64,000 bases of DNA from Mesorhizobium sp. B2-1-8 (lineage in GTDB: Bacteria > Pseudomonadota > Alphaproteobacteria > Rhizobiales > Rhizobiaceae), in assembly GCF_006442545.2 (NCBI RefSeq), contig NZ_CP083952.1, forward strand, positions 62,001 to 126,000, given 5' to 3'. The notes beneath the pieces are model-generated. The model saw only the letters and a list, made by a program, of their open reading frames with translations. It had not been told where the DNA came from and searched no databases. The position numbers and the translations under genes are program-made. Position 1 is the stretch's first letter. Each line of letters begins with the position of its first letter. Below are positions 26,363 through 52,149 of this stretch, one piece after another.

Positions 26363-27943
26363 TCAGATGACTGAAGATGATCCCAGCGTTGCCACGGTCT
26401 TCAGCGCGCCATCGAGCATGTCGCCCTTCTCGTCCTTCAGCGCCGCCTCGCGCAGGCGGCGGATCCAGTCGGCGGCGTCGTCGCGGCCCTTGAGCAGGTC
26501 GAGAGATGAGAGTACCCGGTCGAACTTCGACTGGGCGCGGACATGGGTGTCGCTGTAGCCCTTGATCAGCCGGCGGCAGTTGAGGATTTCGACGGCCAGC
26601 GCATAGTCTGAGGGTACGTAGCCAAGCGCCAGCGTATACCAACGTTCCAGATGCGCCGTCTCGACTTGGTGGCGCAGCAGGCGGCGACGCCAGCGGCGCA
26701 GGCCGCCGATGAACCACAGGGCGGCAAAGCCGGCAAAGCTGTCGGTGCGGATGCGGCGGCCACGGTTGATGCGGCGGTCGAGGAAGCCAGCGAGTTTGGG
26801 CCGGTTCTCGATGTAGCTGCCCAGCCCCGCCGGCAGCGTGCCGCAGAACTCCTCGATGCGCGGATGAAAGTATTCGGTCACTTGCAGGACCGAACCGTCC
26901 TTGACGCCAACCTCCTTGCGGACCCGCCTGTCGCGGGTCGAACGCGTCTTCAGATCGGCGACGCGGATCATGTCGTCGTAGCACATGGCATTGGCCAGAT
27001 GCTTGGCGGCGGCGATGGACAGCGCATGGGCGTGGCCGGCGCTGTCCAGCGCGACGGCCTTGTCCAGCCGGTCGAGATATTCGCGCCCATAGGCGATGTC
27101 CTGATAGTCGACGACCTTTTTCAAGCCGCGAAGCGCCATGTCGCGCACCGCCACCGGCATCTGGTCGATGCGAGCGGCCAGCGCCTGCCATCCCTGCAAC
27201 AGGTTTTGTGGACCGCTCACGCGCCCGGGACCCAGGGCGGATTCGGCAATCGCCGGCTCCGCCGGCTTTGACGAAGGTGTTGCCGCCATGCCGCGCGCGC
27301 GATCGAACGCGGCGCCGAAGGCGGCGAGGCTGGCCTTGACGCCACGGCCGCCGGTGCCGATCGCCTGCTCATAACTTTCACGGGTGAACGGCAGTGCGTC
27401 GGAGCCGGCCAGCGCGCCAAGCAGGCTTGCAGAGATCATCGAGCCATTGTCGGCGGCGATCTTCTCCATGTCGAAGGCGATGAAGCGCTTCGACGCGGCT
27501 TCCGCCGTGGCTTGGACCTTGGACGACGAAGCGCGGCCGTCGCCCGGTTCAATCTTTTCCGAGACGGCGGCGATGCGGTGCGAGGAAGCGATCAGCGTGG
27601 TGCGGTTGGGGGTGACGAAGCCCCTGATGATGGCACGGCCGGCTTCCATCAATTCGGCGGCGATCAATATGTCGACATCGCCCTGCGAGGGCGACAGGGC
27701 GAAGACCGGCAGGCGGCCCGTGTCGCGGGCCATTTCGATATAATAGATGGTGGCGCCGGTGCGCTGGGCGACGCCGGCGACCGACGTCGATTGCGCGACA
27801 TAGCCATTGCGCTCGGCGACATCGGTGATCCAGTCGGCGAGCACGCCGCCGCCCTGGCCGCCAACCGCCAGCACGGCTAGCTTGATGACCGGCTCATCGG
27901 CAGCACCGGACCTGGGACGCAGGGAGGGAACAGGCTCAAGCAT
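26363..27943 (-). CDS. iorB: Indolepyruvate oxidoreductase, subunit beta family
   Basis: 526 residues. The N-terminal 200 form the pyruvate-ferredoxin-oxidoreductase gamma/IorB domain (LAVLAVGGQGGGVLADWITD, TSVAGVAQRTGATIYYIEM). The remaining 300 are an extension found in the long proteobacterial IorB type (for example LANAMCYDDMIRVADLKTR). With IorA it would oxidatively decarboxylate aryl pyruvates such as indolepyruvate to the aryl-acetyl-CoA, passing electrons to ferredoxin. ATG 27943 overlaps the end of iorA by 8 bases, so the subunits are coupled. The extension may replace the separate ferredoxin or give substrate specificity; unknown. Confidence 0.88.
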   Translation of the reverse strand: MLEPVPSLRPRSGAADEPVIKLAVLAVGGQGGGVLADWITDVAERNGYVAQSTSVAGVAQRTGATIYYIEMARDTGRLPVFALSPSQGDVDILIAAELMEAGRAIIRGFVTPNRTTLIASSHRIAAVSEKIEPGDGRASSSKVQATAEAASKRFIAFDMEKIAADNGSMISASLLGALAGSDALPFTRESYEQAIGTGGRGVKASLAAFGAAFDRARGMAATPSSKPAEPAIAESALGPGRVSGPQNLLQGWQALAARIDQMPVAVRDMALRGLKKVVDYQDIAYGREYLDRLDKAVALDSAGHAHALSIAAAKHLANAMCYDDMIRVADLKTRSTRDRRVRKEVGVKDGSVLQVTEYFHPRIEEFCGTLPAGLGSYIENRPKLAGFLDRRINRGRRIRTDSFAGFAALWFIGGLRRWRRRLLRHQVETAHLERWYTLALGYVPSDYALAVEILNCRRLIKGYSDTHVRAQSKFDRVLSSLDLLKGRDDAADWIRRLREAALKDEKGDMLDGALKTVATLGSSSVI

Positions 27944-30089
27944 CGGCGAATGTCAGGCGCCGGCTTTCGCGCCGCCTCTGCAGGACGCCGATCGTCGCGC
28001 GGCGCGTGGCTTCGAGGAAACGATCCCAGCGGCTTGGATTGTGTACGACATCGGCGCGGTAGAAGGACGGGCAGAGCACAGCCGCGTCCGCCACCTCGCC
28101 GCAATTGCCGCAGCCGACGCAGTTCTGATCGATCGATGCGACCGGATCGTCGCGCAGCGGATCGTCCAGCGACTTCACCGACAGCGACGGACAGCCGGAG
28201 AGCCGCATGCAGGCATGGTCGCCGGTGCAGATGTCCTCGTCGACGCCGAATTTCGGCTTGACGACACGCTCGCCGCCTTTGATCGCCTTGTCGACCAGCG
28301 GCTTTTCGCGGCGCTGGCGGTTGAGCATGCATTCCGACGAAGCGACGATGACTTTTGGCCCCTTTTCGTCCGTCGTCAGCGCCTCGCGCAAGGTGTCCTG
28401 CATCTTGCCGACATCGTAGGTGCGGTCGACGTGGCGCAGCCATTTGACGCCCATGCCTTTCACCGCCTCGGTGATCGGATGCTTGGTCGACTTCGTCTTG
28501 TTGCCGGCGCGCGACGACAGGATGTCCTGCCCCCCAGTGGCCGCGGAGTAAAAATTGTCGACGATGACGATGACGCCGTCATTCTTGTTGAACACCGCAT
28601 TGCCGATCGAGGAGGTCAGGCCGTTGTGCCAGAAGCCGCCGTCGCCGACGAAGGAGATCGAGCGGCGCTTGGCGTCGGGCGAATTGAACGCCGAGGCCGA
28701 GGCCGGACCCAGCCCGTAGCCCATGGTTGTAGCGCCGAGTTCGAAAGGCGGCATGATCGAGAACAGATGGCAGCCGATGTCGGAGGCGATGTGGTGCTTG
28801 CCGAGCTCCTGCTCGACCAGCTTGGTCGCAGCAAAGATCGGCCGTTCCGGGCAGCCTATGCAAAAGCCGGGCGGGCGGCCCGGCACGACGTTGATCAGAT
28901 CAGCCGTGTCGACGCCGTCGCCGATCTTGTTGGGCGCGCGCACTTCGCCCGGCAACAGATGCGGTGCCTCGGCGCGCAGGAAGGCGCCGATGCCGTCGAG
29001 CATGACCTGGCCGGTATATTCGCCGGCCATCGGCAGATGCTCCTTGCCGACCAGCCTGGTGCCGCGCCCCGCCTTGTGCATCATCGCGGCAAAGGCCTGT
29101 TCGATGTAGTTGGGCTGGCCTTCCTCGACCACCAGCACCGCCTGCTTGCCTTCGCAGAAAGACAGGAATTCGTCGTCGATCAGGGGATAGACGGCGTTGA
29201 GCACGTAGAGCGGCACATCGGTGTCGCCATAGGTGTCGGCAAGGCCGAGCCGCTGCAGCGCGCGGATGACCGAATTATACATGCCGCCCTGCATGACGAT
29301 GCCGACCGAGCCGTGGTCCGAGCCGAAGAACTCGTTGATCTTGTTCCTGGTGATGAAATCCACCGCTGCCGGCCAGCGCTTCGCCACCTTCTCCTTCTCG
29401 TGCAGGAAGGAGGCGGGCGGCAGCACGATGCGGCCGGTGTCGCGGCGCGGTGCGTCCAGCGCATCGGCGACCGTCATCGGCGGGCGCTTGTTGTCCTTGG
29501 CGATGAAATGGCCATGCACATGGCAGCAGCGGATGCGCACCTGCAGCATGACCGGCGTGTTGGAGATTTCCGACAGCTCGAAACCATCCTCCACCGCCTT
29601 GACGATCGACGGCAGGTTCGGACGCGGGTCGAGCAGCCAGACCTGGCTCTTCATGGCGAAGGCATGGCTGCGCTCCTGCATGATCGAGGAGCCCTCGCCA
29701 TAATCCTCGCCGACGATGATCAGCGCGCCGCCGGTGACGCCGCCGGAGGCGAGATTGGCCAGCGCGTCTGAAGCGACGTTGGTGCCGACCGTCGACTTGA
29801 AGGTCGCGGCACCACGGATCGGGTAGTGCACCGAGGCGGCGAGCATGGCGGTGGCGGTGGCTTCCGAGGCGCTGGCCTCGAAATGCACGCCGAGCTCGCC
29901 CAGAATGTCCTGCGCGTCGGCCAGCACGTCCATCAGATGGCTGATCGGCGCGCCCTGGTAGCCGCCGACATAGCCGACGCCGCATTGCAGCAGCGCCTTG
30001 GTGATGGCGAGGATGCCCTCGCCGGCAAATTCCTCGCCGGCGCCGAGCCTGAGTTTTTCGACTTCCTTGGCAAAAGACCGTTCGGCCAT
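27936..30089 (-). CDS. iorA: Indolepyruvate ferredoxin oxidoreductase subunit alpha
   Basis: 717-residue thiamine-diphosphate enzyme. The N-terminal pyrimidine-binding part has GVGYVGGYQGAPISHLMD and EASASEATATAMLAA. The TPP/Mg site is FVGDGGFWHNG followed by VIVIVDN (near 480-510). The C-terminus carries a ferredoxin-like domain with CTGDHACMRLSGCP and CVGCGNCGE...CP, enough Cys for two 4Fe-4S clusters. ATG 30089 has a strong AAGGAGG 6 bases upstream. It lies downstream of the MarR gene and an isatin-hydrolase-like gene on the same strand, pointing to breakdown of indolic or other aryl-pyruvate compounds. Confidence 0.92.
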   Translation of the reverse strand: MAERSFAKEVEKLRLGAGEEFAGEGILAITKALLQCGVGYVGGYQGAPISHLMDVLADAQDILGELGVHFEASASEATATAMLAASVHYPIRGAATFKSTVGTNVASDALANLASGGVTGGALIIVGEDYGEGSSIMQERSHAFAMKSQVWLLDPRPNLPSIVKAVEDGFELSEISNTPVMLQVRIRCCHVHGHFIAKDNKRPPMTVADALDAPRRDTGRIVLPPASFLHEKEKVAKRWPAAVDFITRNKINEFFGSDHGSVGIVMQGGMYNSVIRALQRLGLADTYGDTDVPLYVLNAVYPLIDDEFLSFCEGKQAVLVVEEGQPNYIEQAFAAMMHKAGRGTRLVGKEHLPMAGEYTGQVMLDGIGAFLRAEAPHLLPGEVRAPNKIGDGVDTADLINVVPGRPPGFCIGCPERPIFAATKLVEQELGKHHIASDIGCHLFSIMPPFELGATTMGYGLGPASASAFNSPDAKRRSISFVGDGGFWHNGLTSSIGNAVFNKNDGVIVIVDNFYSAATGGQDILSSRAGNKTKSTKHPITEAVKGMGVKWLRHVDRTYDVGKMQDTLREALTTDEKGPKVIVASSECMLNRQRREKPLVDKAIKGGERVVKPKFGVDEDICTGDHACMRLSGCPSLSVKSLDDPLRDDPVASIDQNCVGCGNCGEVADAAVLCPSFYRADVVHNPSRWDRFLEATRRATIGVLQRRRESRRLTFADA

Positions 30090-30149
30090 CTCTGCCTCCT
30101 TCCGTTGCCGCCGACAGCCGGCGGCGCGTGCGTTCTAGAATCCTTGTTT

Positions 30150-30196
30150 ATGCATGTCGTTCCCCAGAACCGGGTCCACTTTTGGGCGACATGCAT
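30150..30196. repeat. Short palindromic repeat ATGCATGTCG...CGACATGCAT
   Basis: 47-bp element with perfect 10-bp ends ATGCATGTCG/CGACATGCAT around a centre containing CCCCAGAACCGGGTCC. Elements of this type are scattered in rhizobial genomes. Its last base is the first base of the MarR stop codon, so it may terminate or stabilise that transcript before iorA. Confidence 0.72.
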
Positions 30197-30678
30197 TAGA
30201 TGTCGTGCTTGCGAATGTTCTTCAGCATCTTCAAAAGCGTGGCGATAAGCGCTGCATATTCCGCGTCGTCGATATCGTCGAACATAGCCTCGAAGGCGTC
30301 GTGCATGGCCGGCCAGGCGCGGGTGAACTCGGCGCGGCCTTCGTCGGTCAGGAACACGTGGCGGATGCGGCTGTCGGTGACACCTTGCTCACGCCGCACG
30401 AACCCTTGCCCCTCCAGCGTGTCCAGCGTGCGGCTCAAGGTCGACTGCTCGATGACAGTATAGACCGAGAGGTCGTTGACGGTGACGCCGTCGGTGACCG
30501 ACAGCACGGCCAGCGTGCGCACCTGCGAAATCGTCAGGCCCTGCTTGCGGAAATCTTCACGCAAGGTGGCGTTGTAGCGGCCCATGATGCGGTTCATCAG
30601 ATAGGGCGCGAATTGCTGCAGGCCGATCTGACCGAGGGTCGAAATGCGTTGGCGTTTTTCGGCGACCTTCTGTTCCAT
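30196..30678 (-). CDS. MarR-family transcriptional regulator
   Basis: 160 residues with a winged helix-turn-helix: LTISQVRTLAVLSVTDGVTV, the recognition part YTVIEQSTLSRTLDTLEGQG and the wing RREQGVTDSRIRHVFLTDEG. ATG 30678 overlaps the stop of the upstream FAD oxidoreductase in ATGA; the longer open frame has no leader or RBS. As the regulator co-transcribed with the catabolic minus arm, it is one of two candidates (with 43560-44030) to bind the TTTNAAGCWTNAAA palindromes in the island. Confidence 0.9.
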   Translation of the reverse strand: MEQKVAEKRQRISTLGQIGLQQFAPYLMNRIMGRYNATLREDFRKQGLTISQVRTLAVLSVTDGVTVNDLSVYTVIEQSTLSRTLDTLEGQGFVRREQGVTDSRIRHVFLTDEGRAEFTRAWPAMHDAFEAMFDDIDDAEYAALIATLLKMLKNIRKHDI

Positions 30679-32252
30679 CACAGTTTCCCCGCCAGCAGGA
30701 AACCGGAGCCGCCGCCAAGGCCAGCACCGGGATGGGTCGAGGCACCGATATGGTAGAGGTTCTTGATGCCGGTCTGGTGGTTGCGGCTGGTCTTGAACGG
30801 CCGCCACAGGAAGGACTGGTCAATGGTCGAGGAGCCGCCGTAGGGATCGCCGCCGACCAGGTTGACGTTCATCGCCTCGAGATCGGCCGGCGAATAGGCG
30901 CGGCGCGCGATGATGCTGTCCTTGAAGCCGTCGATATGGCTGGCGAGGATCGCTTCGGCACGGTCGGCATAGGCTTCGCGCAGCGCCTCGGTCCATTGAC
31001 CGTCAGCCGGCGCCTGCAGCTTGCCGGCAGCGTCGCCCTTGATGTGGCGCGGCGCCTCGGGCAATTGCAGCCACAGGATCGCCTTGCCTTCCGGGCAGCG
31101 CGACGGGTCGAGCGCATGCGGCTGGCCGACACAGATGGTCGGCACGTCAGGCAGCATGCCGCGCGCCGCCTCGTTGCAGGCTTTCGAGACGCCATCCAGG
31201 CCAGGCGTCAGATGCAGCAGCGCCACCTTGTCGAGGCCCTCGCCGCCGCGCCAGGCCGGCGGCTTGTCGAGGGCGTAGTGGATCTGGAAGTTGCCTTTGC
31301 CATAGCGGTACTTCCGCGTCGCTTCGACATCGTCCTTCGGAGCGTCCTTGCCGAGCAGGCGACCATAAAGCTGCGTCGGCGTGACCGAGCAGATGACGCT
31401 CTTGGTGGCGTGAACGGTTTCGCCCGAGGCCAGCCGTACGCCTGTGGCGCGACCTCCGGTCAGGAGGATGGAGGCAACGTCCGCTTCGGTGGAAATGACG
31501 CCGCCACGCTCCTTGATGAGCGCCTCGAAAGCCGACAGCAGGTTCTTCGCGCCGCCCTTGACGATCGGCGCGCCGGCAGCCTCCAGCGCGAAGGCGATCA
31601 CCTTGGCGATCTGGCCGGAAAAGCCGTCTTCCGGGCCAAGCCCGGCATGCAGCACCCACGGCGCCCAGAGCGCGCGGACGGTCTCGGACTGATAAGCGCT
31701 TTCCAGCCAGCCGCGCGCCGACACAAGGGCGTCACCGAGAAAGGCGGCAAGCCCGCGCGGACCACGCCGCCAGGCGTCGCCGGCCAGCAGCTTGGCCGTC
31801 GGATAGGACCACAGACTGCCGCTGAGCAAGCCGAACAGCAGGCCGGCATTGCGCTCGATGCCGCCGACATCTTCCGCATGGCGGTCACCGTCGCCGGCCG
31901 CGATCGCGTTGAACGCAGCGATGTTGGCGGCGCGGTCGGTGGTGAGCACCGCGTGGCTGCCATCCGGCCGCAGCACGCCCGTTGGCGTGCCGGTGTGGCA
32001 GAATTCCAGCCCGTGCCGGGCGAGGTCGGCGCCCAGTGCCGCGAAGGCCGGCGAGGTGATGAACAGCACGAAGGTCGTCGCCATCACGTCGTGGATGAAG
32101 CCGGGCGCGGTGATCTCCTCGGTGCGCATGCAGCCGCCGATACGGTCATTGCGCTCCAGCACGAGCACCCTGGCGCCATTACCGCCAAGCATCGCCGCGC
32201 AAACCAGCCCATTGATGCCGCTGCCGACGATGATGTGATCGGGGGCGTTCAT
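30678..32252 (-). CDS. NAD(P)/FAD-dependent oxidoreductase, CrtI/CrtO-like (copy 1)
   Basis: 524 residues. N-terminal FAD-binding motif IIVGSGINGLVCAAMLGG with VLERNDRIGGCMR, and C-terminal FAD-closing block NLYHIGASTHPGAGLGGGSG. The fold is that of the phytoene desaturase/amine-oxidase group, but no carotenoid genes are nearby. A paralogue of the same length lies at 33465 on the opposite strand, beyond the isatin-hydrolase-like gene. In this setting a dehydrogenase step on an indolic ring compound (for example dioxindole to isatin) is conceivable; this is inference only. Overlaps the MarR gene by one base. Confidence 0.82.
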   Translation of the reverse strand: MNAPDHIIVGSGINGLVCAAMLGGNGARVLVLERNDRIGGCMRTEEITAPGFIHDVMATTFVLFITSPAFAALGADLARHGLEFCHTGTPTGVLRPDGSHAVLTTDRAANIAAFNAIAAGDGDRHAEDVGGIERNAGLLFGLLSGSLWSYPTAKLLAGDAWRRGPRGLAAFLGDALVSARGWLESAYQSETVRALWAPWVLHAGLGPEDGFSGQIAKVIAFALEAAGAPIVKGGAKNLLSAFEALIKERGGVISTEADVASILLTGGRATGVRLASGETVHATKSVICSVTPTQLYGRLLGKDAPKDDVEATRKYRYGKGNFQIHYALDKPPAWRGGEGLDKVALLHLTPGLDGVSKACNEAARGMLPDVPTICVGQPHALDPSRCPEGKAILWLQLPEAPRHIKGDAAGKLQAPADGQWTEALREAYADRAEAILASHIDGFKDSIIARRAYSPADLEAMNVNLVGGDPYGGSSTIDQSFLWRPFKTSRNHQTGIKNLYHIGASTHPGAGLGGGSGFLLAGKL

Positions 32253-32295
32253 TGATGATTCCCCGGGGCCAGCAGGTAGGCATGCGAGGTCAGCC

Positions 32296-32469
32296 CTCTA
32301 CGGCGCCCCCCTCTGTCCTGCCGGACATCTCCCCCACGAGGGGGGAGATCGGCTGTCATCGTTGCCTTCGCCAATTTCCAACGTTGCAAGAACGAGCGGG
32401 GCGCCAAAGCTGCCAATCTCCCCCCTCGTGGGGGAGATGTCCGGCAGGACAGAGGGGGGCGCCGTAGAG
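32296..32469. repeat. Palindromic intergenic repeat, family 1, copy 3
   Basis: 174-bp inverted repeat with ends CTCTACGGCGCC/GGCGCCGTAGAG. The arms are TCTCCCCCACGAGGGGGGAGA and TCTCCCCCCTCGTGGGGGAGA, perfect complements. It lies in the 302-base gap between the cyclase 3' end and the first FAD oxidoreductase gene. Confidence 0.9.
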
Positions 32470-32554
32470 CGACGGCCTTGCCAGGCTGCCCCTTCCCACC
32501 CATCACTACAACATCTGCTGCAACCATGATCTTCTCCCGAAGACCGCCCTCGCC

Positions 32555-33346
32555 CTATTTCCCCGGCACCAGCGCCAGTGCGCGGATCGGGCTGCCCGTG
32601 CCGTGCTCGATCTTGAGCGGTGCGGCGATCAGGATCGCGCCTTTCGGCGGCAGCTGGTCGAGATTGCAGAGGCTGGCCAGGCCATAGCGGTTGGCCTTGT
32701 GCATCAGCGTGTGCGCCGGGAATGGCGGCTCCATGCCGCCGGCCTTGCCGGCATCGGTGCCGATGGTCTCCGAGCCCCAGCCCTTGATATTCTTGCTGAT
32801 CAGGAACTGGATGGCTTCAGCCGTCGGGCCGGGCGTGTGCGGGCCGGTCTCGTTGGCGTTGAGGAACTCGGCTTCCGAGCCGTTGCGCTTGTACCAGTCG
32901 GTGCGCATCACCACCCACTCGCCGGCATTGATGGCGCCATGCTTGGCTTCCCAGGCCTTGATGTGGTCGACGGTGAGCAGGAAATCAGGGTCGGCGGCGG
33001 CCTCTTTCGAACAGTCGATGACATTGACCGGACCGATGAAATTCTGCGCTGGAATGGTGTCGGTGGCGCCGTCCGGATAGTCCTTACCGCTGATCCAATG
33101 CTGCGGCGCGTCGAAATGCGTGCCGGAATGCTCGCCGAGTTTCAGCCAGTTCCACGCCCACCACGGACCGTTCTTGTCGTAGCGGGAGATCGAGTGGATC
33201 TCGATCTTCGGCGTGTCGACCGCGAGCTCCGGCGGCAGCTTGATCAGCGGCGTGTCCGGTCCAAGCGGCGCCGTCAGGTCGACCACCTTGATGGCGCCGG
33301 AAAGGAGCTGGCCGGCGACTTCGCCGAGAAGTTTTTGGGTGTCCAT
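32555..33346 (-). CDS. Cyclase-family hydrolase, probable isatin hydrolase
   Basis: 263 residues of the cyclase/kynurenine-formamidase-like metal hydrolase family. The metal-binding signature HxGTHxDxPxH is present as HSGTHFDAPQHW (near residue 75). The later blocks GSETIGTDAGKAGG, PPFPAHTLMHKANRYGL and NLDQLPPKGAILIAAPLK match what I recall of bacterial isatin hydrolases more closely than kynurenine formamidases. Isatin hydrolase opens isatin to isatinate using Mn2+. ATG 33346 follows AGAGGGAACAG. The gene opens the minus arm of the island, and the operator at 33435-33448 lies in the shared divergent promoter region. Confidence 0.82.
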   Translation of the reverse strand: MDTQKLLGEVAGQLLSGAIKVVDLTAPLGPDTPLIKLPPELAVDTPKIEIHSISRYDKNGPWWAWNWLKLGEHSGTHFDAPQHWISGKDYPDGATDTIPAQNFIGPVNVIDCSKEAAADPDFLLTVDHIKAWEAKHGAINAGEWVVMRTDWYKRNGSEAEFLNANETGPHTPGPTAEAIQFLISKNIKGWGSETIGTDAGKAGGMEPPFPAHTLMHKANRYGLASLCNLDQLPPKGAILIAAPLKIEHGTGSPIRALALVPGK

Positions 33347-33464: not shown

Positions 33465-35039
33465 GTGAGCGAGTTCGACGCCATCTTTGTCGGGGCGGGC
33501 CACAACACTCTGGCATGCGCTGCGCATCTGGCGCTCAAGGGCTGGAAAACCGGGGTTTTCGAGCGCAGCGCAACAATCGGCGGCGCCGTCCAGACCCGCG
33601 AATTCACCCTCCCCGGCTTCCGCCACGACTTCGGCGCGATGAATCTGAGCCTGTTCGCCGGCTCCGCCTTCCACCGGAAATATGCAAATGAATTGAAAGC
33701 GCAGGGGCTGGAATTCGCGCCGGTCGCCGACTGTTTCGCCAGCGCGTTCCCGGATGGACGCTGGTTCGGCGTCAGCAACGATCTGGAAAAGACCGCCAGC
33801 CGGATGGCCGCGTTTTCAGCCGCCGATGCCGCAACATGGCGCAAGCTGGTCACCGCCTTCCCCACCGAAGCCGAACATTTGTTCAAGCTGCTGGGCTCGC
33901 CAATGAGCGCCCGGGCGCTTGCGGCAACCGCATGGAACCTGTGGCGCAAGAAGGGTGTTTCCGGCGCGCTCGACACCGGCCGGTTGCTGTTGTCTTCGCC
34001 GCGTGCCTGGCTGGAGGAGACTTTCGAGTCTCCACACATCGGGGCGACGCTCGCAACCTGGGGCATGCATCTCGACTTCGCGCCCGACATCGCCGGCGGT
34101 GCCGTGTTTCCCTATCTGGAATCGATGGCCAACCAGAGTTTCGGCATGGTGCTGGGCAAGGGTGGCGCCGACACGATCATCCGTGCGCTGGCCGGCATGG
34201 TGACGTCGGCCGGCGGCAAGATCGTCACCAGCGCCGATGTCGCCGAGATCAAGGTCTCCGGCGGCAAAGCGACAGGCGTACGGCTTGCCTCCGGCGAGAC
34301 GCATACGGCCACCAGGGCGGTCATTGCAGGCGTCGCGCCCAAGGCGCTGACCGGCAAGTTGCTGCCCGGAGGTTCCGGCGACACCCGCTTCGACACGGCG
34401 ATGCAAAAATTCAGGCATGCGCCGGGCACGATGATGATCCACCTGGCGCTGGACGATTTGCCGGACTGGCGCGTCGGGGCAGAGTTGCGCCAGTTCGCCT
34501 ATGTGCATCTGGCGCCATCGCTCGACCAGATGTCGCGCACCTATCAGCAGGCGATGGCAGGTATGTTGCCGGACGAACCGGTGCTGGTCGTCGGCCAGCC
34601 GACCGCGGTCGATCCGTCGCGAGCGCCTGCGGGCAAGCATGTTCTGTGGGTGCAGGTGCGCATGCTACCCGCCGAAATCCTTGGCGATGCAACAGGCAAG
34701 ATCGCGCCAGCGCATTGGGACGAGGTCAAGGAGGTCTATGCCGACCGCGTGCTCGACATCATCGAAACCTACGCGCCCGGCCTGCGCGCAAAAATCCTCG
34801 GCCGCGCGGTGTTTTCGCCCATCGATCTCGAGCGCGAGAACCCGAACCTCGTCGGCGGCGACCAGGTCTGCGGCAGCCATCACCTGGCGCAGAACTTCCT
34901 GTTCCGCCCGGCGCGCGGCTATGCCGGCTGGAACACGCCGCTGACCAATCTGCATCTCACCGGCGCCGCGACATGGCCCGGTGCCGGCACCGGTGCCGCC
35001 TCGGGCTTCATGCTCGCGCAACAACTCGGCGGGAGGTAG
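33465..35039 (+). CDS. NAD(P)/FAD-dependent oxidoreductase, CrtI/CrtO-like (copy 2)
   Basis: 524 residues, homologous to copy 1 along its length: FVGAGHNTLACAAHLALKGW with VFERSATIGGAVQTREFTLP at the N-terminus and LHLTGAATWPGAGTGAASG at the C-terminus. The start is GTG 33465; the ATG at 33452 is out of frame and the FAD motif follows immediately. The palindrome at site A covers the space just upstream, suggesting direct repression. First gene of the long plus-strand arm leading to the ABC importer. The substrate is unknown; oxidation of an indolic intermediate is inferred from context. Confidence 0.82.
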   Translation: MSEFDAIFVGAGHNTLACAAHLALKGWKTGVFERSATIGGAVQTREFTLPGFRHDFGAMNLSLFAGSAFHRKYANELKAQGLEFAPVADCFASAFPDGRWFGVSNDLEKTASRMAAFSAADAATWRKLVTAFPTEAEHLFKLLGSPMSARALAATAWNLWRKKGVSGALDTGRLLLSSPRAWLEETFESPHIGATLATWGMHLDFAPDIAGGAVFPYLESMANQSFGMVLGKGGADTIIRALAGMVTSAGGKIVTSADVAEIKVSGGKATGVRLASGETHTATRAVIAGVAPKALTGKLLPGGSGDTRFDTAMQKFRHAPGTMMIHLALDDLPDWRVGAELRQFAYVHLAPSLDQMSRTYQQAMAGMLPDEPVLVVGQPTAVDPSRAPAGKHVLWVQVRMLPAEILGDATGKIAPAHWDEVKEVYADRVLDIIETYAPGLRAKILGRAVFSPIDLERENPNLVGGDQVCGSHHLAQNFLFRPARGYAGWNTPLTNLHLTGAATWPGAGTGAASGFMLAQQLGGR

Positions 35040-42799: not shown

Positions 42800-43566
42800 C
42801 GGCCGCGACAATCTCCGGCAAGCATGCGCTGGTGACCGGCGGCGGCTCCGGCGTCGGCCGGGCCATCGCGCTCAATTTGGCCGAGGCTGGTGCCGACGTG
42901 ACCATATGCGGGCGCCGCGAAGCTGAACTCGTCAAGGTTGCCGGCGAAAACGGCCGCATCCATGGCATTGTCGCCGACGTCACCGATGAGGTGGCGATGG
43001 CCTCGCTTTACCAAACGGCGGAAACCGCGCGCGGACCGTTCGACATCGTCGTCGCCAATGCCGGCATGGCCGGCAGCACGCCGGCGCACAAGACCTCGCT
43101 GGCCGACTGGCAGCGAACGCTCGACGTCAATTTGACCGGGGCCTTCCTGACGGTGAAGCCGGCGCTGGCCGGCATGGCCGCGCGCAAGGCAGGACGGATC
43201 GTCTTCATCGCCTCCACCGCCGGTCTGAAAGGCTACGCCTATGTCGCGCCTTACGTCGCGGCCAAGCATGGCGTTGTCGGCCTGATGCGGGCGCTTGCCG
43301 CCGAGACGGCGAAATCCGGCGTCACCGTCAATGCCGTATGTCCGGGCTTCGTCGAGACCGACATGCTGGAAGAGTCCATCCAGCGCATCATCGAGAAGAC
43401 CGGCCGCTCGGCTGGCGAGGCGCGAGCCAGCCTCGTCTCGACCAATCCGCAAGGCCGTTTCATCCAGCCGCAGGAAATTGCCGAAGCCGTGCTGTGGCTG
43501 TGCGGCGACGCGGCGGCGTCGATCACCGGACAGGCGATTTCTATCTCGGGAGGTGAAACATGGTAG
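42796..43566 (+). CDS. Short-chain dehydrogenase/reductase
   Basis: 256 residues of the classical SDR family. NAD(P) motif [12 protein letters not shown] (near 14), NAG at VANAGMAG, catalytic Ser in FIASTAGL, Tyr and Lys in [11 protein letters not shown]. Likely acts on a hydroxyacyl-CoA made by the preceding fused enzyme and the hydratase below. ATG 42796 overlaps the upstream stop by 4 bases; its own stop overlaps the MarR start. Substrate inferred from context. Confidence 0.9.
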
Positions 43567-44030
43567 CCGGCCCCCTGCCCGTGCCATCGGGACCCGGCAA
43601 GGACCGGTTGCGTCTTTGGATAAGGCTGCTGCGGGCTTCACGCACGATAGAGGCCGAGCTGCGCGAACGGCTAAAGAAGGAATTCGATACGACCCTGCCG
43701 CGCTTCGATGTGATGGCCGCGCTTTACCGGGCGCCGGAAGGCATGCTGATGAGCGACCTGTCGCGCTTCCTGCTGGTGTCCAACGGCAATGTCACCGGCA
43801 TTGTCGACCGGCTGGTGTCGGAAGGACTTGTCGCCCGCGCGCGCCGCAATGGCGACCGCCGCACCTCCATGGTGCGGCTGACCGACGAAGGCACGAAGTC
43901 CTTCGCCACCATCGCCGCCGCGCATGAGGGTTGGATCGGTGAATTGCTGGGCAAGGTCAGCGATGAGGATGCGCGCCGGCTGACCGGCATGCTGACCTCG
44001 TTCCGCAGCAACTGGGAGGGACGCGAATGA
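43560..44030 (+). CDS. MarR-family transcriptional regulator
   Basis: 156 residues with a winged helix: [20 protein letters not shown], recognition region [20 protein letters not shown], wing [19 protein letters not shown]. It is embedded in the operon, overlapping the SDR gene by 7 bases and the hydratase gene by 4. Local MarR proteins in aromatic CoA-ester operons usually respond to the CoA thioester and repress their own operon. The palindrome at 40435-40449 is the obvious target; not proven by sequence. Confidence 0.92.
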
Positions 44031-44839
44031 CTGCAATGGCCGGCCTGAAGCCGAAGCATTTCCTGTGGGAGGTCGAGGGCAGGATCGCCAAGATCCGGCT
44101 CGACCGGCCGGAGCGCAAGAATCCGCTGACTTTCGACAGCTATGCCGAGCTACGCGACACGTTCCGCGACCTCGTCTATGCCGACGATATCGACGCCGTG
44201 GTGTTCCTGTCCAATGGCGGCAATTTCTGCTCCGGCGGCGATGTCCACGACATCATCGGTCCGCTGGTCAAGATGGACATGAAGCAACTTCTCGCCTTCA
44301 CCCGCATGACCGGCGATTTCGTCAAGGCGATGCTCAATTGCGGCAAGCCGATCATCGCGGCTGTCGACGGCGTGGCGGTCGGCGCCGGCGCCATCATCGC
44401 CATGAGTTCGGACATTCGCATCGCCACGCCGGAAGCCAAGACGGCGTTCCTGTTCACACGTGTCGGCCTTGCCGGCTGCGACATGGGCGCCTGCGCGATC
44501 CTGCCGCGCATCATCGGCCAGGGCCGCGCCGCCGAACTGCTCTACACCGGCCGCACCATGACGGCTGATGAAGGCGAGCGCTGGGGGTTCTACAACAGGC
44601 TGGTCGATGCCGCGGCTCTGGAGGCCGACGCGCTGGAGATGGCGGCCCGCATCGCTTCCGGCCCGACCTTCGCCCATGGCATCACCAAGACGCAGCTCAA
44701 CCAGGAATGGTCGATGGGCCTCGACCAGGCGATCGAGGCCGAAGCGCAGGCGCAGGCGATCTGCATGCAGACGCGCGATTTCGAGCGGGCGTACCTGGCT
44801 TTCGTGGCCAAGGAAAAGCCGGTGTTCGAGGGAAATTGA
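44027..44839 (+). CDS. Enoyl-CoA hydratase/isomerase family protein
   Basis: 270 residues of the crotonase fold. [20 protein letters not shown] is at the N-terminus, oxyanion-hole elements at [15 protein letters not shown] and [20 protein letters not shown], and [20 protein letters not shown] in the substrate region. The usual second catalytic Glu position carries Asp/Met in GCDMG, so the exact reaction (hydration, or hydrolytic ring opening) is open. Beta-oxidation-like step of the CoA aromatic pathway. Confidence 0.87.
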
Positions 44840-45040: not shown

Positions 45041-45070
45041 CACTAATCTTGAAGTACCGCGGAGGCACCC

Positions 45071-46219
<1,149 letters not shown>

Positions 46220-46296
46220 ACAGGTCGCGTTGACGGATTGGATTGTTTTGAAACGCGGATATTGCGGACCCGATATTGGATAGGCGGAGAGACGAC

Positions 46297-46692
46297 ATGC
46301 ACGAGATCCTGCAGCCGGAAGGCTGGGCAAAACCGGTCGGCTACGCCAATGGCGTGGCGGCGCGCGGCAGGCTCGTCTTCGTCGGCGGACAGATCGGCTG
46401 GAACGGGCAGTGCCAGTTCGAAACCGACGATTTCGCCGGCCAGGTGCGGCAGACGCTCCAGAACATCGTCGCGGTGCTGGCCGAGGCCGGCGCGGAGCCA
46501 CGGCACATCACCTCGATGACCTGGTATTTTACCGACAAGGCCGAATATCTCGGCAACCTCAAGGGGATCGGCGAGGCCTATCGCGAGGTGATCGGCCGAC
46601 ATTTTCCGGCCATGGCCGCCATGCAGGTGGTGGCGCTCGTGGAAGACCGCGCCAAGGTGGAGATCCAGGCGACCGCCGTCGTTCCGGAATAA
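46297..46692 (+). CDS. RidA-family enamine/imine deaminase
   Basis: 131 residues of the RidA (YjgF/TdcF/UK114) family. Visible blocks are GRLVFVGGQIGWN, QTLQNIVAVLAEAGAEP and MQVVALVEDRAKVEIQATAV. RidA proteins hydrolyse imines and enamines, releasing ammonia. The anthraniloyl-CoA route creates an amino-enone after ring reduction, so a deaminase here fits. ATG 46297 has GGCGGAGAG upstream. It converges on the next gene with 23 bases between stops. Confidence 0.88.
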   Translation: MHEILQPEGWAKPVGYANGVAARGRLVFVGGQIGWNGQCQFETDDFAGQVRQTLQNIVAVLAEAGAEPRHITSMTWYFTDKAEYLGNLKGIGEAYREVIGRHFPAMAAMQVVALVEDRAKVEIQATAVVPE

Positions 46693-46715: not shown

Positions 46716-47807
46716 TTATTCGCGAAGTCCGGCCTGCCTCAGCAAGGGCAGCACGTGGTCGCAAAAATAGGGCAATTCCTGCGTATAGTTGACGAAGGAC
46801 AGGGCGATACCTTGATAGCCGTGCGCGGCAATGGCGGCCATCTCGGCGGCAATCGTCTGCGGCGTTCCAACCAGCGGATAGGTGCCGGCGCCGCCGGCGA
46901 AACGCTGGCGGTAGCGGTCATAGGCATGCGGGTCGTGCGACTGCGAGAATTCCTTCTTGCCGGCCATATGCGCATCGACCGCCTCGTGGTCGGCCAGATC
47001 GACGGCATATCTGTTATAATAGGCCTGTGCCTCTTCCATGGTCGGGCGGCAGACGACATGGGCCACGGTGTAGACGCCGACCTCGCGGCCCACCTTGTCG
47101 GCCCGCTCGCCGATGTCGGCGACATGCTTGCCGGCATCGCCCATCTCGGAAAAGGTCGTGAACAGATAGTCGCATCTGGCGGCGGCGAAATCGCGGCCCG
47201 GGCCGCCGAAAGCGGCGTTCATGGTCACCGGGCGCGGAACCTGCAGGCTGGCCGGCCGGCTGACCGCCTGGGTGAGGTGATAATAGGTGCCTTCATAGTC
47301 GAGCGGCTCCGCCGACGCGTAGAGCTTTTCCAGGATTTCGATCCATTCGGCCGCCTGGTCGTAACCCTTCTCGACCAGCGGCGTGCCGAACATGCCGAAT
47401 TCCTTCGGGTTCCAACCGCAGACGATGTTCAAACCGGCACGGCCCTGGCTGATGTGGTCAACCGTCGCCAGCGCCTTGGCGGCATAGAGCGGATGCACCA
47501 GGGGCACATGCACGGTCATGAACAGACCGATCCGGTCGGTGGCCACGCCGAGCGCCGCCGCCCATGTGAAGGTCTCGAACGACCGCTCGCGTACCTTGTT
47601 GCGGCCGCCAAAGCCGCGCCAGCGGGCGATCGGCAGCAGGAACTCCAGCCCGGCGCGGTCGGCGATCTGGGCGGCCGTCAGATTGTCCTGCCAGCTTGCC
47701 GTCCAGCGCTCCGGCACATCCGATATGGCAAGGCCGCCATCGGCGTTGGTCGAGAAGACCCCAAGCTTCAGTTTGTTGGAGCCGTGCAACGGATGTGCCT
47801 TGTTCAT
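46716..47807 (-). CDS. LLM-class flavin-dependent monooxygenase, RutA-like
   Basis: 363 residues of the luciferase-like (alpha/beta barrel) FMN monooxygenases. LPIARWRGFGGRNKVRERSF, VDHISQGRAGLNIVCGWNPKEF and NAAFGGPGRDFAA resemble RutA, which opens the uracil ring oxidatively. No flavin reductase partner (RutF-like) is seen in this window. ATG 47807 follows GGGAGG; a longer frame is open upstream. Divergent from the HpcH/HpaI gene, with operator site C between them overlapping a candidate -35 TTGAAA. Confidence 0.85.
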   Translation of the reverse strand: MNKAHPLHGSNKLKLGVFSTNADGGLAISDVPERWTASWQDNLTAAQIADRAGLEFLLPIARWRGFGGRNKVRERSFETFTWAAALGVATDRIGLFMTVHVPLVHPLYAAKALATVDHISQGRAGLNIVCGWNPKEFGMFGTPLVEKGYDQAAEWIEILEKLYASAEPLDYEGTYYHLTQAVSRPASLQVPRPVTMNAAFGGPGRDFAAARCDYLFTTFSEMGDAGKHVADIGERADKVGREVGVYTVAHVVCRPTMEEAQAYYNRYAVDLADHEAVDAHMAGKKEFSQSHDPHAYDRYRQRFAGGAGTYPLVGTPQTIAAEMAAIAAHGYQGIALSFVNYTQELPYFCDHVLPLLRQAGLRE

Positions 47808-47853
47808 GTCGCGACCTCCCGGCGAAGATCGCACGCTACGGCTCCGCGAAAAT

Positions 47854-47928: not shown

Positions 47929-48705
47929 ATGAGCGAGTTCCGCCAGAAATGCATCGGCAAGACCAGCCTCGTCGGCTCCTTCGCCGCCATTCCTCACCCC
48001 GTCGCGGTCGAATTGCTGGCGCTGTCCGGCCTCGATTTCCTCTGCATCGACTGGGAGCATGCCCAGATTTCCCGCGACATGGTCGAGAGCATGGTACGCG
48101 CCGCCGATGTGCATCGCGTGCCGGCGATGGTGCGCGTTCCCGGACATGCGCCCGAAGCCATCCAGGCGGCGTTGGACAGCGGCGCGCAAGGCGTGCTGGT
48201 GCCCCGCGTCTCAACACCGGCGCAGGCGGCGATGGCGGTGAAAGCGTCCCGCTATCCGCCACGAGGCGAACGCGGCGTCGGACCCGGCCGCGCGGCCGGT
48301 TATGGTTATCGTATTCCCGAATATCTTGCGGGCGCCAATGAGCGGACCATCGTCGCGATCCAGGTCGAAACTTCTGAAGGGCTGGCCAACATCGAGGCGA
48401 TCGCTGATGTCGACGGCGTCGACGTGATCTTTGTCGGCCCCGGCGATCTCTCCGTGTCGATCGATGCGATCGGACCGAAGGGCGCCGACAAGCTCACGGA
48501 TGCGATCCGCAGGATCATCGGCGTGACGATCGCGCACGACAAGACCTCCGGCATATTTTGCGCCAGCCCGCAGACTGTCGGCCAATGGGCAGCCGTCGGC
48601 GCCAGCTTTTTCGTCCTGGCCAGCGACACGATGTTTCTCGGTGCGGGCGCCGCGGCCAACCATGCCGCTGCCCTGGCCGAACTGGCGCGGGAAAACCCGC
48701 GCTAG
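47929..48705 (+). CDS. HpcH/HpaI-family aldolase
   Basis: 258 residues from ATG 47929, with AAGGGGAT upstream; an ATG six codons earlier at 47911 is possible. HpaI-type class II aldolase: FLCIDWEHAQI, AIQVETSEGLANIEAIA (metal-binding Glu) and IFVGPGDLSVSI (metal-binding Asp), then PRVSTPAQAAMA. These enzymes cleave 2-oxo-4-hydroxy acids to pyruvate plus aldehyde. In the island it could release pyruvate or a semialdehyde from the last intermediate; substrate unknown. Confidence 0.88.
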   Translation: MSEFRQKCIGKTSLVGSFAAIPHPVAVELLALSGLDFLCIDWEHAQISRDMVESMVRAADVHRVPAMVRVPGHAPEAIQAALDSGAQGVLVPRVSTPAQAAMAVKASRYPPRGERGVGPGRAAGYGYRIPEYLAGANERTIVAIQVETSEGLANIEAIADVDGVDVIFVGPGDLSVSIDAIGPKGADKLTDAIRRIIGVTIAHDKTSGIFCASPQTVGQWAAVGASFFVLASDTMFLGAGAAANHAAALAELARENPR

Positions 48706-49124: not shown

Positions 49125-49922
49125 ATGAACCTGACCCGTCGCAATCTCATCCTTTTCGCAGCGGCAATCGGTATCGGCGCCGGGCCGGCAACCGCCTATG
49201 CCGCCGATGTGCTCAATGTCGGCGCCTACCCGACCAACCCGCCCTTCGAATACAAGAACGAGAGCGGTACCTTCGAGGGTTTTGAGGTCGACATCGTCAA
49301 CGAGGCGGCCAAGCGCGCCGGCATGACAACAGACATCGCCGATCTCGGCTTCCAGGCACTGTTCGCCGCGACCACTTCCAAGCGCATCGACGTCGCCATC
49401 TCCTCGATCACGATCACGCCGGAGCGGCTGAAGTCGCAGTCGTTCACCCAGCCCTATTATGATTCCGACATGGGCATCGCCACCAAGACCGACAGCGCGG
49501 TCAATGCCGAGGCCGACCTCAAGGGCAAGATCGTCGGCGTGCTCTCGGGCTCGACCGGCGAGACCTGGGTCAAGGCGCACCAGGACGCCGACGGCTTCAG
49601 CGACGTGAAGGGCTATGACACGCAGCAGAACCTGCTGCTCGACCTCAGCGCAGGCCGTGTCGACGCCGCCGTCAGCGACATTCCCGGCATGGAATATTCC
49701 TTCACCAAGATGAAGGACCTGAAGGTCAAGCAGCGCATCAAGACCGGCGAGCAGTACGGCCTGATGATGACCAAGGATCATCCGCTGCTCGGCAAGCTCA
49801 ACGACGCGCTGAGCGCGATGAAGAAGGACGGTACGCTGGCCGCCATCCACAAGAAGTGGTTCGGCAGCGACGCCCCGGCCGATTCCTCGACCGTCAAGGA
49901 AATGCCGCTGCCCAAGGCCTGA
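49125..49922 (+). CDS. Amino-acid ABC transporter substrate-binding protein (family 3)
   Basis: 265 residues. Sec signal peptide MNLTRRNLILFAAAIGIGAG is followed by a family 3 fold: NVGAYPTNPPFEYKNESGTF, GFEVDIVNEAAKRAGM, DVAISSITITPERLKSQSF and GVLSGSTGETWVK. Such proteins bind polar amino acids or related compounds. The permease 158 bases downstream completes the membrane part. Because it lies behind operator D it is likely to serve the island. ATG 49125; RBS GAGGGAC. Confidence 0.9.
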   Translation: MNLTRRNLILFAAAIGIGAGPATAYAADVLNVGAYPTNPPFEYKNESGTFEGFEVDIVNEAAKRAGMTTDIADLGFQALFAATTSKRIDVAISSITITPERLKSQSFTQPYYDSDMGIATKTDSAVNAEADLKGKIVGVLSGSTGETWVKAHQDADGFSDVKGYDTQQNLLLDLSAGRVDAAVSDIPGMEYSFTKMKDLKVKQRIKTGEQYGLMMTKDHPLLGKLNDALSAMKKDGTLAAIHKKWFGSDAPADSSTVKEMPLPKA

Positions 49923-50080: not shown

Positions 50081-50755
50081 ATGTCGCTGATCGACACTTT
50101 CTTCAACGCAGACGTCATCGCGTCGAGCCTGCCGGCGCTGCTGCGCGGCTTCCTGAACACGCTGCTGCTCGGCCTGCTCAGCATCGGCATCGGCATTCCC
50201 ATCGGCCTGGTGATCAGCCTGTTGCGACTCTATGCGCCGAAGCCGCTGCGCTGGCTGGCGGTCGGCTACACCGACATCTTCCGTGCCTTGCCGGTCCTAG
50301 TCGTGCTGATCCTGATCTACTATGCGCTGCCTTTCCTCGGCATTCGCCTGTCGTCCTGGGCTTCGGCGGTGACCGCGTTCGCCATCATCATGTCGGCCTA
50401 TTCGGCCGAAGTGTTCCGCTCCGGCATAGAGAGCATTCCGCGCGGCCAGTTCGAGGCCTCGCAGGCGCTCGGCCTGCCGTTCCTTTTGACCTTGCGCAAG
50501 GTGGTGCTGCCGCAGGCGGTGCGCGTCGTCATCCCGCCGATGACCAGCAACTGCGTCTCGATGTTCAAGGACACTTCGCTGGCCTCAACCGTGGCGCTGC
50601 CGGAACTGCTGAAGGAAGCGACCAACGCGCAATCGCTCTACGCCAACCCCTCGCCGCTGATCGGCGCGGCACTCGTCTATCTCATCTTCCTTTGGCCGAT
50701 GGTTCGTCTCGTCAGCCTGCTTGAAGCCCGCTTCAAGGACGAGAAGGCCCGCTAG
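50081..50755 (+). CDS. Amino-acid ABC transporter permease (HisM/GlnP type)
   Basis: 224 residues with 5 membrane spans. [20 protein letters not shown] opens the typical HisM/GlnP permease; [20 protein letters not shown] is the conserved segment before the EAA loop. No ATPase gene follows, so the transporter must borrow one from elsewhere. Its stop codon TAG is supplied by the family 2 repeat copy B. Confidence 0.92.
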
Positions 50756-50857: not shown

Positions 50858-50886
50858 CCACCACAATCACTTCGCAGGAGATATTC

Positions 50887-52149
50887 TTGAGCAATCCCCA
50901 GGCCACCGGCGGCTTTCCCGTCGACACCATCCGCGCCATGTTCCCTGCCCTGCAGCGGGCCGGCGATTTCATCTTCATGGACAATGCCGCCGGCGCGCAG
51001 ATCCCGCAGAGCGTGCTCGACGCGGTGACCAACCACCTGGTTTCGCACAATGTGCAGCGCGGCGGCCGCTATGGCCGCAGCGTCACCGTCGACCAGTCGG
51101 TCGCCGATGCTCGGACAAGCGTCGCCTTGCTGATCAATGCCTACAGCCCGGCGGAAATCTGCTTCGGCATGAACGCCACCTCCTTCATCCGCCTCGTCAG
51201 CCTCGGCATCGGCCAGATGCTTGCAGAGCGCGATGAAATCGTCATCACCGACATGGACCATGATGCCAACATCGCCACGTGGCTGGCGCTGGAATCCGCC
51301 GGTGCCAAATTCAAGTGGTGGCGCATGCGCGAGGACGGCAATCTGCATGTCGACGATTTGCGTCCACTGGTCTCCGACCGCACCCGCCTCATCGCCTGCA
51401 CGGTGACCGCACACTCGATCGGTTCGATCGTCGATGTCGCTTCGGTGGCCAAAATCGCGCATGCCGCCGGCGCCGAAGTGTTCCTCGACTGCGTGCACTA
51501 CGGGCCGCACGGGATGATCGACGTGCAAGCCTGGGACTGCGACTACCTCGTCTGCTCCGGCTACAAGAACTTCTCGCCGCATATGGGTTTCCTGTGGGGC
51601 CGCTTCGAAACGCTGAAGCGCCTGCCGACCTTCCGCGAGGACTTCATCCCCAACGAGCCGCCCTACAAGGTCGAGGCCGGCACCTTCATCTATGAGAACG
51701 TGTCCGGCATGGATGCCGCCGTACAGTACCTGGAACTGATCGGCCGCAATCTCGCGCCGTCCAACAACCGCTCGCGGCGCGAGAATATCGTCGCCTGCAT
51801 GGGCGCCATCCGCGACTATGAGCTGGTGCTGGCGCGCGAGATGATGAGCGTGCTGAAGAACTGCGGCGCGACCATCTACGGCGTCGCCGACGAAGCCCGC
51901 ATCAACGAGCGCGTGCCGACCTTCTGCTTCAACATCGGCAAGCTGTCGCCACAGCGGATCGTCGAGGAAATGGCCGAGATGCAGATCGGCATCCGCGACG
52001 GCCACATGTATGCGCCCCGCCTGATGAAACGCCTCAACCTGTCGATGGACAGCGGCGCCATCCGCGCCTCGCTGGTGCATTACAACACGGTCGAGGAGAT
52101 CCACAAGTTCGGCGAGGCGCTGCGCGCCATCATCGCCAAGCTGCAGTGA
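50887..52149 (+). CDS. Class V aminotransferase-fold protein, cysteine-desulfurase-like
   Basis: 420 residues of PLP fold type [19 protein letters not shown] at the N-terminus, [33 protein letters not shown] and [16 protein letters not shown], where the Lys would bind PLP. Annotated relatives are called cysteine desulfurase-like proteins. The fold also covers kynureninases, so an amino-group or C-C cleavage step in the island is possible. TTG 50887 is the start because AGGAGAT lies 7 bases upstream; no ATG fits. Confidence 0.82.

Follow-up and report, generated by a model that had tools for sequence, protein, structure and literature searches.

A putative Rieske-free island for catabolism of an indolic compound through isatin in Mesorhizobium sp. 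B2-1-8

Overview

Here we examine a gene island in a stretch of 64,000 nucleotides from Mesorhizobium sp. B2-1-8 (NCBI RefSeq assembly GCF_006442545.2, contig NZ_CP083952.1, positions 62,001 to 126,000 of the forward strand), hereafter the window, which lies at C1:62001-126000 of a 6.87 Mb genome in two contigs. The island combines an isatin hydrolase, two flavin-dependent oxidoreductases (FAD1 and FAD2), a pair of genes related to indolepyruvate oxidoreductases (IorA and IorB, together IorAB), an Opp-type importer and an operon headed by a fused FAD monooxygenase/Old Yellow Enzyme protein (ABM). On balance we favour, with somewhat better than even confidence, the reading that its genes serve to import an indolic compound and degrade it via isatin, with IorAB feeding ABM. 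A broader proposition, that the whole IorAB lineage (including IadAB of auxin degradation loci) acts as an isatinate:ferredoxin oxidoreductase served by interchangeable entry modules, one being the CrtI-type FAD pair with the Opp importer, we judge to be evenly balanced. By gene content, the island represents an isatin route of indole catabolism that lacks a Rieske enzyme, the role of IorAB in it being one that we infer.

An earlier sequence-only reading of this DNA had proposed a route from an indolic compound, perhaps a plant auxin or conjugate, to intermediates bound to coenzyme A (CoA). The isatin and CoA steps of that proposal are retained here, and auxin or a plant conjugate is at most a possible substrate. 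If our reading is correct, it would provide a role for IadAB, marker genes of auxin loci that carry no assigned reaction in the papers cited here, and would supply the missing connection from isatin to the aerobic aminobenzoyl-CoA pathway. It also predicts a Rieske-free isatin route across rhizobia and Rhodobacteraceae that surveys based on iadDE or iacA would overlook.

An isatin hydrolase and a proposed route to 2-aminobenzoyl-CoA

The gene on which the proposed route turns encodes a protein that aligns to isatin hydrolase B of Labrenzia (4J0N) with 437 bits and 71% identity, to the A-type enzymes 5NNB and 5NMP with 321 and 305 bits, and to kynurenine formamidase entries with at most 31 bits, a comparison named beforehand that places this cyclase with the isatin hydrolases, as had been suspected from the letters. 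Isatin hydrolase activity is marked by an HxG[T/A]HxDxPxH metal motif, an aromatic WxW/FxW clamp and GLAS or GLQC (PMC6117287), and all three marks occur in the window protein (HSGTHFDAPQH, WAWNW and GLAS), the first as already read. We rejected kynurenine formamidase on score (31 bits to KynB), and C-C cyclohydrolase likewise, dihydrophloroglucinol cyclohydrolase being only 25% identical to isatin hydrolase (PMC10470551). By homology, the gene is a B-type isatin hydrolase.

In the route that we propose, the Opp-type importer would take up an indolic compound, and FAD1 and FAD2, as CrtI-type dehydrogenases, may perform the oxidation that ends in isatin, which the hydrolase would open to isatinate, a step backed by the close relationship of this protein to a characterised enzyme. 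Isatinate (2-aminophenylglyoxylate) is a 2-oxoacid, and a CoA-dependent 2-oxoacid:ferredoxin oxidoreductase would therefore yield 2-aminobenzoyl-CoA from it, so that neither free anthranilate nor a ligase would be needed. Comparative data suggest that IorAB could catalyze this step, converting isatinate and CoA to 2-aminobenzoyl-CoA by oxidative decarboxylation with transfer of electrons to ferredoxin. ABM would then hydroxylate and reduce the ring of 2-aminobenzoyl-CoA, and the SDR, hydratase, acyl-CoA dehydrogenase and RidA proteins would, by homology to the known route, deliver ring carbon and amino nitrogen to central metabolism. The family that ABM matches, NF006101, is named salicylyl-CoA 5-hydroxylase/oxidoreductase at NCBI; from RidA, tryptophan 2,3-dioxygenase and isatin hydrolase genes that neighbour such fusions we tentatively propose that ABM is instead a 2-aminobenzoyl-CoA monooxygenase/reductase. 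The anthraniloyl-CoA-type route suggested previously is consistent with these downstream genes, which fit the 2-aminobenzoyl-CoA pathway, and the accompanying suggestion that anthranilate can be formed from isatinate is modified, with IorAB now the likely bridge to 2-aminobenzoyl-CoA and free anthranilate dispensable.

Association of IorAB with ABM and loss of the ligase

The distribution of IorA, ABM and the AMP-forming ligase of ABM operons was surveyed in the order to which this genome belongs and in a second order, using calling limits of 1e-100, 1e-150 and 1e-140, respectively, and the ligase of the Ruegeria ABM operon as the ligase query; first searches scored the best 2 or 3 candidates per genome in the own order and 6 or 8 in the second. 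Across 397 genomes of the own order, ABM was found in 123, IorA in 71 and both in 66 (odds ratio 62, p about 1e-34), and across 167 genomes of the second order in 70, 29 and 26 (odds ratio 18.5, p about 7e-9), with p-values here and below that ignore shared ancestry. Pooling both orders, ABM is present in 92 of 100 IorA genomes.

Thirteen of the 193 ABM genomes gave no ligase match at E 1e-140. A recheck of all candidates at E 1e-60, covering these 13 genomes and not the ABM- or IorA-negative ones, recovered contig-end ligase fragments (63-82% identity) in three (G468, G461 and G664), only paralogues of 32-34% identity in two (G544 and G567) and nothing in eight. Ligase-free ABM genomes thus number 10 of 92 that are IorA-positive versus 0 of 101 that are IorA-negative (p 0.0005), or 8/66 versus 0/57 in the own order and 2/26 versus 0/44 in the second. 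A member of the same genus, G391 (100% complete as listed), carries the island and has no ligase match even at E 1e-60. Proximity shows a related pattern: in the own order, of the 23 genomes (from 13 genera) that have IorA within 30 kb of ABM, 6 also have a ligase no more than 15 kb from ABM, compared with 80 of the 100 others (p 2e-6). In the present genome the ligase is found 3.85 Mb away along the contig, adjoining tryptophan 2,3-dioxygenase, as expected if it belongs to a separate kynurenine route, and in the relative G621 the island adjoins an ABM operon that itself includes dioxygenase and ligase. It is as if two routes, one through kynurenine, anthranilate and the ligase and the other through isatin, isatinate and IorAB, were to feed a single ABM.

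The IorAB lineage

The features of an IOR-type 2-oxoacid:ferredoxin oxidoreductase are present in IorAB, namely a thiamine pyrophosphate (TPP) motif at residue 482 of IorA, Fe-S cysteines and a POR gamma domain, and 11 cysteines (410 to 673) of IorA are invariant across all 112 aligned sequences. IorA falls outside the indolepyruvate-specific family, scoring 271.9 bits against a cut-off of 650.9 bits for the IOR_alpha equivalog TIGR03336. The same lineage also stands beside Rieske (iad-type) genes in Azospirillum thermophilum and in five further loci (L145, L150, L152, L155 and L157), whose Rieske proteins are 68-80% identical to the A. thermophilum IadD-type protein, itself assigned by gene order. 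A tree of the 112 IorA sequences intermixes Rieske-type with FAD-type loci, as read from branching order without regard to node support and with labels taken from stretches of 38 kb or less per locus. Since both types of loci share an IorAB lineage, isatin is likely to be their common intermediate, and IorAB would act at or after isatin rather than at entry.

Mixed arrangements were also observed. A third arrangement is seen in two loci (L117, from Shinella sp. PSBB067, and L178), where IorAB and A-type isatin hydrolases are accompanied by iadF-, thiolase- and iadH-like genes and the stretch covered gave no Rieske match. Locus L025 holds, within 20 kb, iadCDEF-type Rieske genes, a thiolase, both A-type and B-type isatin hydrolases, IorAB and an ABM-type operon with ligase.

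Work on auxin degradation bears on this assignment. The iorAB genes are described as markers of iad loci, whose route runs via isatin and isatinic acid (PMC9613470). When the Variovorax locus is deleted (genes 77-53, iadA being gene 72) and iadC-K2 restored, a compound of formula C8H7NO3 is reported to accumulate, shown not to be N-formylanthranilate (PMC9613470, PMC12633357). This formula fits isatinate. The main text of PMC12633357 makes no mention of iadA or of indolepyruvate, and our literature search, which was not exhaustive, found no paper assigning isatinate oxidation to IorAB.

Several observations weigh against the role that we propose for IorAB and for the entry enzymes. According to the 2025 preprint, iadC-K2, which excludes iadAB, suffices for anthranilate formation in Variovorax, and C8H7NO3 builds up only in strains overexpressing iadC-K2 (PMC12633357). 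The ligase is retained somewhere in 82 of the 92 IorA-positive ABM genomes. Within the second order, neither the ligase-free difference (p 0.13, in the same direction) nor the placement of the ligase beside ABM (6/9 genomes with nearby IorA versus 56/61 others, p 0.06) is significant alone. Eight of the 100 IorA genomes have no ABM, six of them with a divergent IorA (50-56%) and two, G312 and G669, with IorA at 71%. Lastly, the function given to FAD1 and FAD2 is read from fold and gene order only.

The principal alternative takes IorAB as annotated, converting indolepyruvate or an arylpyruvate to an acyl-CoA at the start of the pathway, with isatinate going to free anthranilate that a distant ligase would activate. 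This would agree with the family name, with the annotation of plasmid homologues, with the presence of a ligase elsewhere in this genome and with free anthranilate being a known iad product. It is at odds with the IOR_alpha score (272 versus 651 bits), with the occurrence of the lineage beside a Rieske module that attacks indole-3-acetic acid (IAA) directly and needs no arylpyruvate step, and with the 10 genomes that have ABM and IorA without a ligase orthologue, and we consider it unlikely.

Conservation of the island and a candidate operator

For the analysis of gene order, 80 named loci from GTDB representatives were used; these are the best 80 of 577 confirmed loci ranked by similarity to Labrenzia isatin hydrolase B (LaIHB), so the set leans towards B-type hydrolases. 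Fifty-eight contain FAD1 or FAD2, 15 contain the hydrolase and IorA without a FAD gene, and seven have neither. When the 19 loci with less than 6 kb on one side of the hydrolase were excluded, the remaining 61 (at least 6 kb on both sides) held IorA in 55 cases, FAD1 in 45, FAD2 in 45 and the SBP5 gene in 44. The exact order SBP5-FAD2-IH-FAD1-MarR-IorA-IorB, where IH is the isatin hydrolase, is found in 45 of the 58 FAD-containing loci, and five further genomes of the genus (G421, G594, G494, G514 and G391) preserve the arrangement that runs from ABM through to the aminotransferase-like gene. Such conservation, in the genus and in 45/58 loci, argues that the grouping is not due to chance. For both the hydrolase and FAD1 the best homologue, at 92% identity, comes from Mesorhizobium, and M. 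loti DSM 2626 (L071) has counterparts, at 90-98%, of the hydrolase, FAD pair, MarR1, IorAB, importer and ABM. Relatives share the synteny of the island, whose core also turns up in Rhodobacteraceae and Hyphomicrobiales. The named loci and the genome sets overlap and are not independent (e.g. G391 = L072, G594 = L078, G634 = L056 and G795 = L025).

The pattern TAGAC-(8-10)-TG[CT][AG]TNTGCAA occurs in 47 of the 58 FAD-type loci, always between FAD2 and IH; it has no match in 7.4 Mb of shuffled sequence, a control that preserves base content only and a pattern that was composed after the aligned sites had been viewed. A shorter core, TTGCANN[CT]GCA, was recovered from the 150 bases upstream of the hydrolase gene both in 47 of the 58 FAD-type loci and in 11 of the 15 that lack FAD genes; among background pieces of that length, 4 of 1382 contain it. 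No second copy with more than 20 of 31 matching bases was found in the window. MarR1 scores 148 bits to 3CJN, 82 bits to 7KYM (Bradyrhizobium japonicum IadR) and 33 bits to 7KFO, and the divergent IH and FAD2 promoters may be under MarR1 control through the conserved TGCATNTGCAA element.

Entry module and substrate

Rieske genes of the IadDE/IadC type are absent from the island, in line with the sequence-only reading, and the three Rieske alpha subunits elsewhere in the genome are only 26-33% identical to the A. thermophilum IadD-type protein over half its length. Nor did the profile search find an AMP-forming ligase or thiolase of the IadF/IadG type in the island. FAD1 and FAD2 are 39.5% identical to each other, FAD1 has a CrtI-type fold, and both score well below curated cut-offs (176 and 220 of 1000 bits for CrtO; 112 and 140 of 238 for crtI_fam). 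The carotenoid dehydrogenases CrtI, CrtD and CrtO share this fold and differ in identity (18%) and context, no carotenoid genes accompanying the FAD pair. As judged from gene content, the FAD pair and Opp-type importer stand in place of a Rieske entry enzyme.

A locus strictly devoted to IAA, in which these FAD enzymes attack IAA in a Rieske-free variant of the iad pathway, would account for the isatin hydrolase and for the shared iorAB, described as iad markers (PMC9613470), as well as for the 82-bit relationship of MarR1 to IadR. It sits poorly with the absence of the defining iadDE from the island, where no IadF/IadG-type genes were found either, with the CrtI-type fold of FAD1, which is not that of a known indole oxygenase, and with importers of a different type from the IAA-binding, B-III type IadK2 of Variovorax (PMC10374108); we regard this explanation as rather improbable.

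A styrene/indole monooxygenase (PF17885) was rejected as the entry enzyme: it adjoins 6 of the 80 loci and has no match in this genome, nor in control genomes, so that its absence is unproven. The six loci are L017, L033, L045, L048, L053 and L066; in L017, L048, L053 and L066 a flavin reductase and a luciferase-like monooxygenase accompany the gene, and there the three may form a possible indole entry module.

The substrate might alternatively be an oxidised tryptophan-type amino acid (e.g. dioxindolylalanine), imported by the amino-acid ABC system, deaminated to the pyruvate and cleaved by the HpcH-type aldolase to isatin and pyruvate; by chemical reasoning, a retro-aldol of 3-hydroxyoxindole pyruvate would give these products. 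Five genomes of the genus keep the aldolase, SBP3 and permease genes in synteny, and L056/L138 (one genome), L083 and L148 again combine them with isatin hydrolase and IorAB. At 40% identity, however, the aldolase is found in 1 and SBP3 in 6 of the 80 loci, no deaminating enzyme was identified, and this idea seems to us highly unlikely. Least probable of all is that an isatin detoxification operon (IH-FAD1-MarR-IorAB) merely neighbours an unrelated anthranilate or salicylate CoA pathway, since IorA and ABM are strongly associated across the genomes of both orders (odds ratio 62 in one, 18.5 in the other) and L175 has IorA, IorB, a thioesterase gene and ABM as an unbroken run in one direction. 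The idea draws on ABM being present in only 20/80 loci and missing within 10 kb on each side of many Rhodobacteraceae loci.

Gene content of the island

Gene families were called by NCBIfam and Pfam profile search across 22.5-60 kb of the window (Table 1), and the enzyme families, strands and approximate positions given by the sequence-only reading were all recovered. On the minus strand the order is IH, FAD1, MarR1, IorA and IorB. The divergent arm carries FAD2, the importer (a binding protein, two permeases and two ATPases), ABM, SDR, MarR2, hydratase, acyl-CoA dehydrogenase and RidA, beyond which lie a luciferase-like monooxygenase, an HpcH-type aldolase, an amino-acid-type ABC pair and a class-V aminotransferase-like gene, the last within the extent of the earlier reading and unnamed there. 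Overlaps of 1-8 bases between ABM/SDR, SDR/MarR2, MarR2/hydratase, IorA/IorB (8 bases) and FAD1/MarR1 form a pattern typical of coupled genes. A homologue of ATPase D at 40% identity or more is present in 51 of the 80 loci.

Table 1. Features of the island, with window positions and the evidence for each
Feature	Position	Strand	Evidence and remarks
IorB	26363..27943	-	Proposed small chain; POR gamma domain + DUF6537; indolepyruvate oxidoreductase beta family; NF006179 713 bits (cut-off 348), PF20169, PF01558
IorA	27936..30089	-	TPP- and Fe-S-binding large chain; IOR_alpha 272 bits (cut-off 651), PF02775
MarR1	30196..30678	-	PF12802/PF01047; start ATG at 30678; likely repressor of divergent operons
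FAD1	30678..32252	-	CrtI/CrtD-type FAD oxidoreductase; part of proposed entry module
Isatin hydrolase, B type	32555..33346	-	437 bits, 71% identity to 4J0N (LaIHB); PF04199 133 bits
Conserved element CTAGACGAAAACATATGCATCTGCAA	33405..33430	+	Divergent promoter; proposed MarR1 operator
FAD2	33465..35039	+	FAD1 paralogue; CrtO profile 220 bits, under cut-off
Opp/Dpp-type (SBP_bac_5) substrate-binding protein	35143..36672	+	PF00496 255 bits
Opp-type permease B	36761..37768	+	Profile matches
Opp-type permease C	37734..38609	+	Profile matches; GTG start at 37761 also possible
Opp-type ATPase D	38606..39484	+	Open frame, ATG at 38606; homologue annotated as ABC transporter ATP-binding protein in plasmid locus L119, not a Pfam profile call
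Opp-type ATPase F	39432..40307	+	PF00005; ATG start at 39477 likely
ABM, fused FAD monooxygenase/Old Yellow Enzyme	40505..42799	+	NF006101 1258 bits (cut-off 1078); PF01494, PF00724
SDR dehydrogenase	42796..43566	+	PF00106 194 bits; 4-base overlap with ABM
MarR2	43560..44030	+	PF12802
Enoyl-CoA hydratase family protein	44027..44839	+	NF006107 483 bits (cut-off 330)
Acyl-CoA dehydrogenase	45071..46219	+	PF00441 152 bits
RidA-family enamine/imine deaminase	46276..46692	+	PF01042 74 bits
Luciferase-like flavin monooxygenase (RutA/SfnG-like)	46716..47807	-	PF00296 164 bits; open frame to 47990, likely start near 47807
HpcH/HpaI-type aldolase	47929..48705	+	PF03328 120 bits
SBP3-type (polar amino acid) binding protein	49125..49922	+	TIGR01096 168 bits (below cut-off of 256); PF00497
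Amino-acid-type ABC permease	50081..50755	+	TIGR01726 101 bits (cut-off 42)
Class-V aminotransferase-like protein	50887..52149	+	TIGR01976 599 bits (cut-off 352); syntenic in genus

A kynureninase-like class-V aminotransferase, which differs from the class-V gene of the window, lies near the hydrolase in 10 of the 80 loci (e.g. L004, 16602-17915). The island is followed at 52267-57592 by an ABC operon of the Dpp (dipeptide) type in the opposite orientation, its best matches being Dpp models, mostly below their cut-offs; this operon is probably separate from the island. Within the island, a GC-rich imperfect palindromic repeat is found between genes at 32287-32470 and 44873-45045, with a related block at about 12727-12841; the shared blocks are GGCGCCCCCCTCTGTCC and CCGGACATCTCCCCC, and the repeat resembles a rhizobial intergenic mosaic repeat family.

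Comparison with known systems

The hydrolase resembles isatin hydrolase B of Labrenzia aggregata in overall identity (71%), metal motif, aromatic clamp and GLAS, and differs in host and substrate supply; a Labrenzia sp. homologue (90% to 4J0N) occurs in the same gene order as in the window (L004). The iad loci of Variovorax paradoxus CL14 and B. japonicum USDA110 share with the island an iorAB pair and, if our reading holds, MarR control and a route through isatin and isatinic acid (PMC9613470). A hydrolase of iad loci, IadI, is annotated as kynurenine formamidase (PMC12633357), and in the Azospirillum iad-type locus it is an A-type isatin hydrolase. Unlike these loci, the island has a B-type hydrolase and, in place of the Rieske IadDE/IadC and IadF-G modules, which were not found in it, a CrtI-type FAD pair and an Opp importer, together with a linked ABM operon.

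On the CoA side, the 2-aminobenzoyl-CoA clusters of the Ruegeria pomeroyi DSS-3 megaplasmid and Phyllobacterium sp. T1293 show the same succession of ABM, SDR, MarR, enoyl-CoA hydratase and acyl-CoA dehydrogenase followed by RidA. Both operons hold an AMP-forming ligase (76% mutual identity), and that of R. pomeroyi also a tryptophan 2,3-dioxygenase family gene. Neither gene occurs in the island, which carries IorAB in their place.

The plasmid locus of A. thermophilum (NZ_CP029358) resembles the island in placing iorAB and an ABM operon without an ABM-type ligase in one locus, the AMP-binding proteins compared within that locus being only 28-29% identical to this ligase. It differs from the island in its A-type hydrolase (63% to 5NNB, with GLQC), its Rieske entry genes and an adjoining IadF-type AMP-binding gene.

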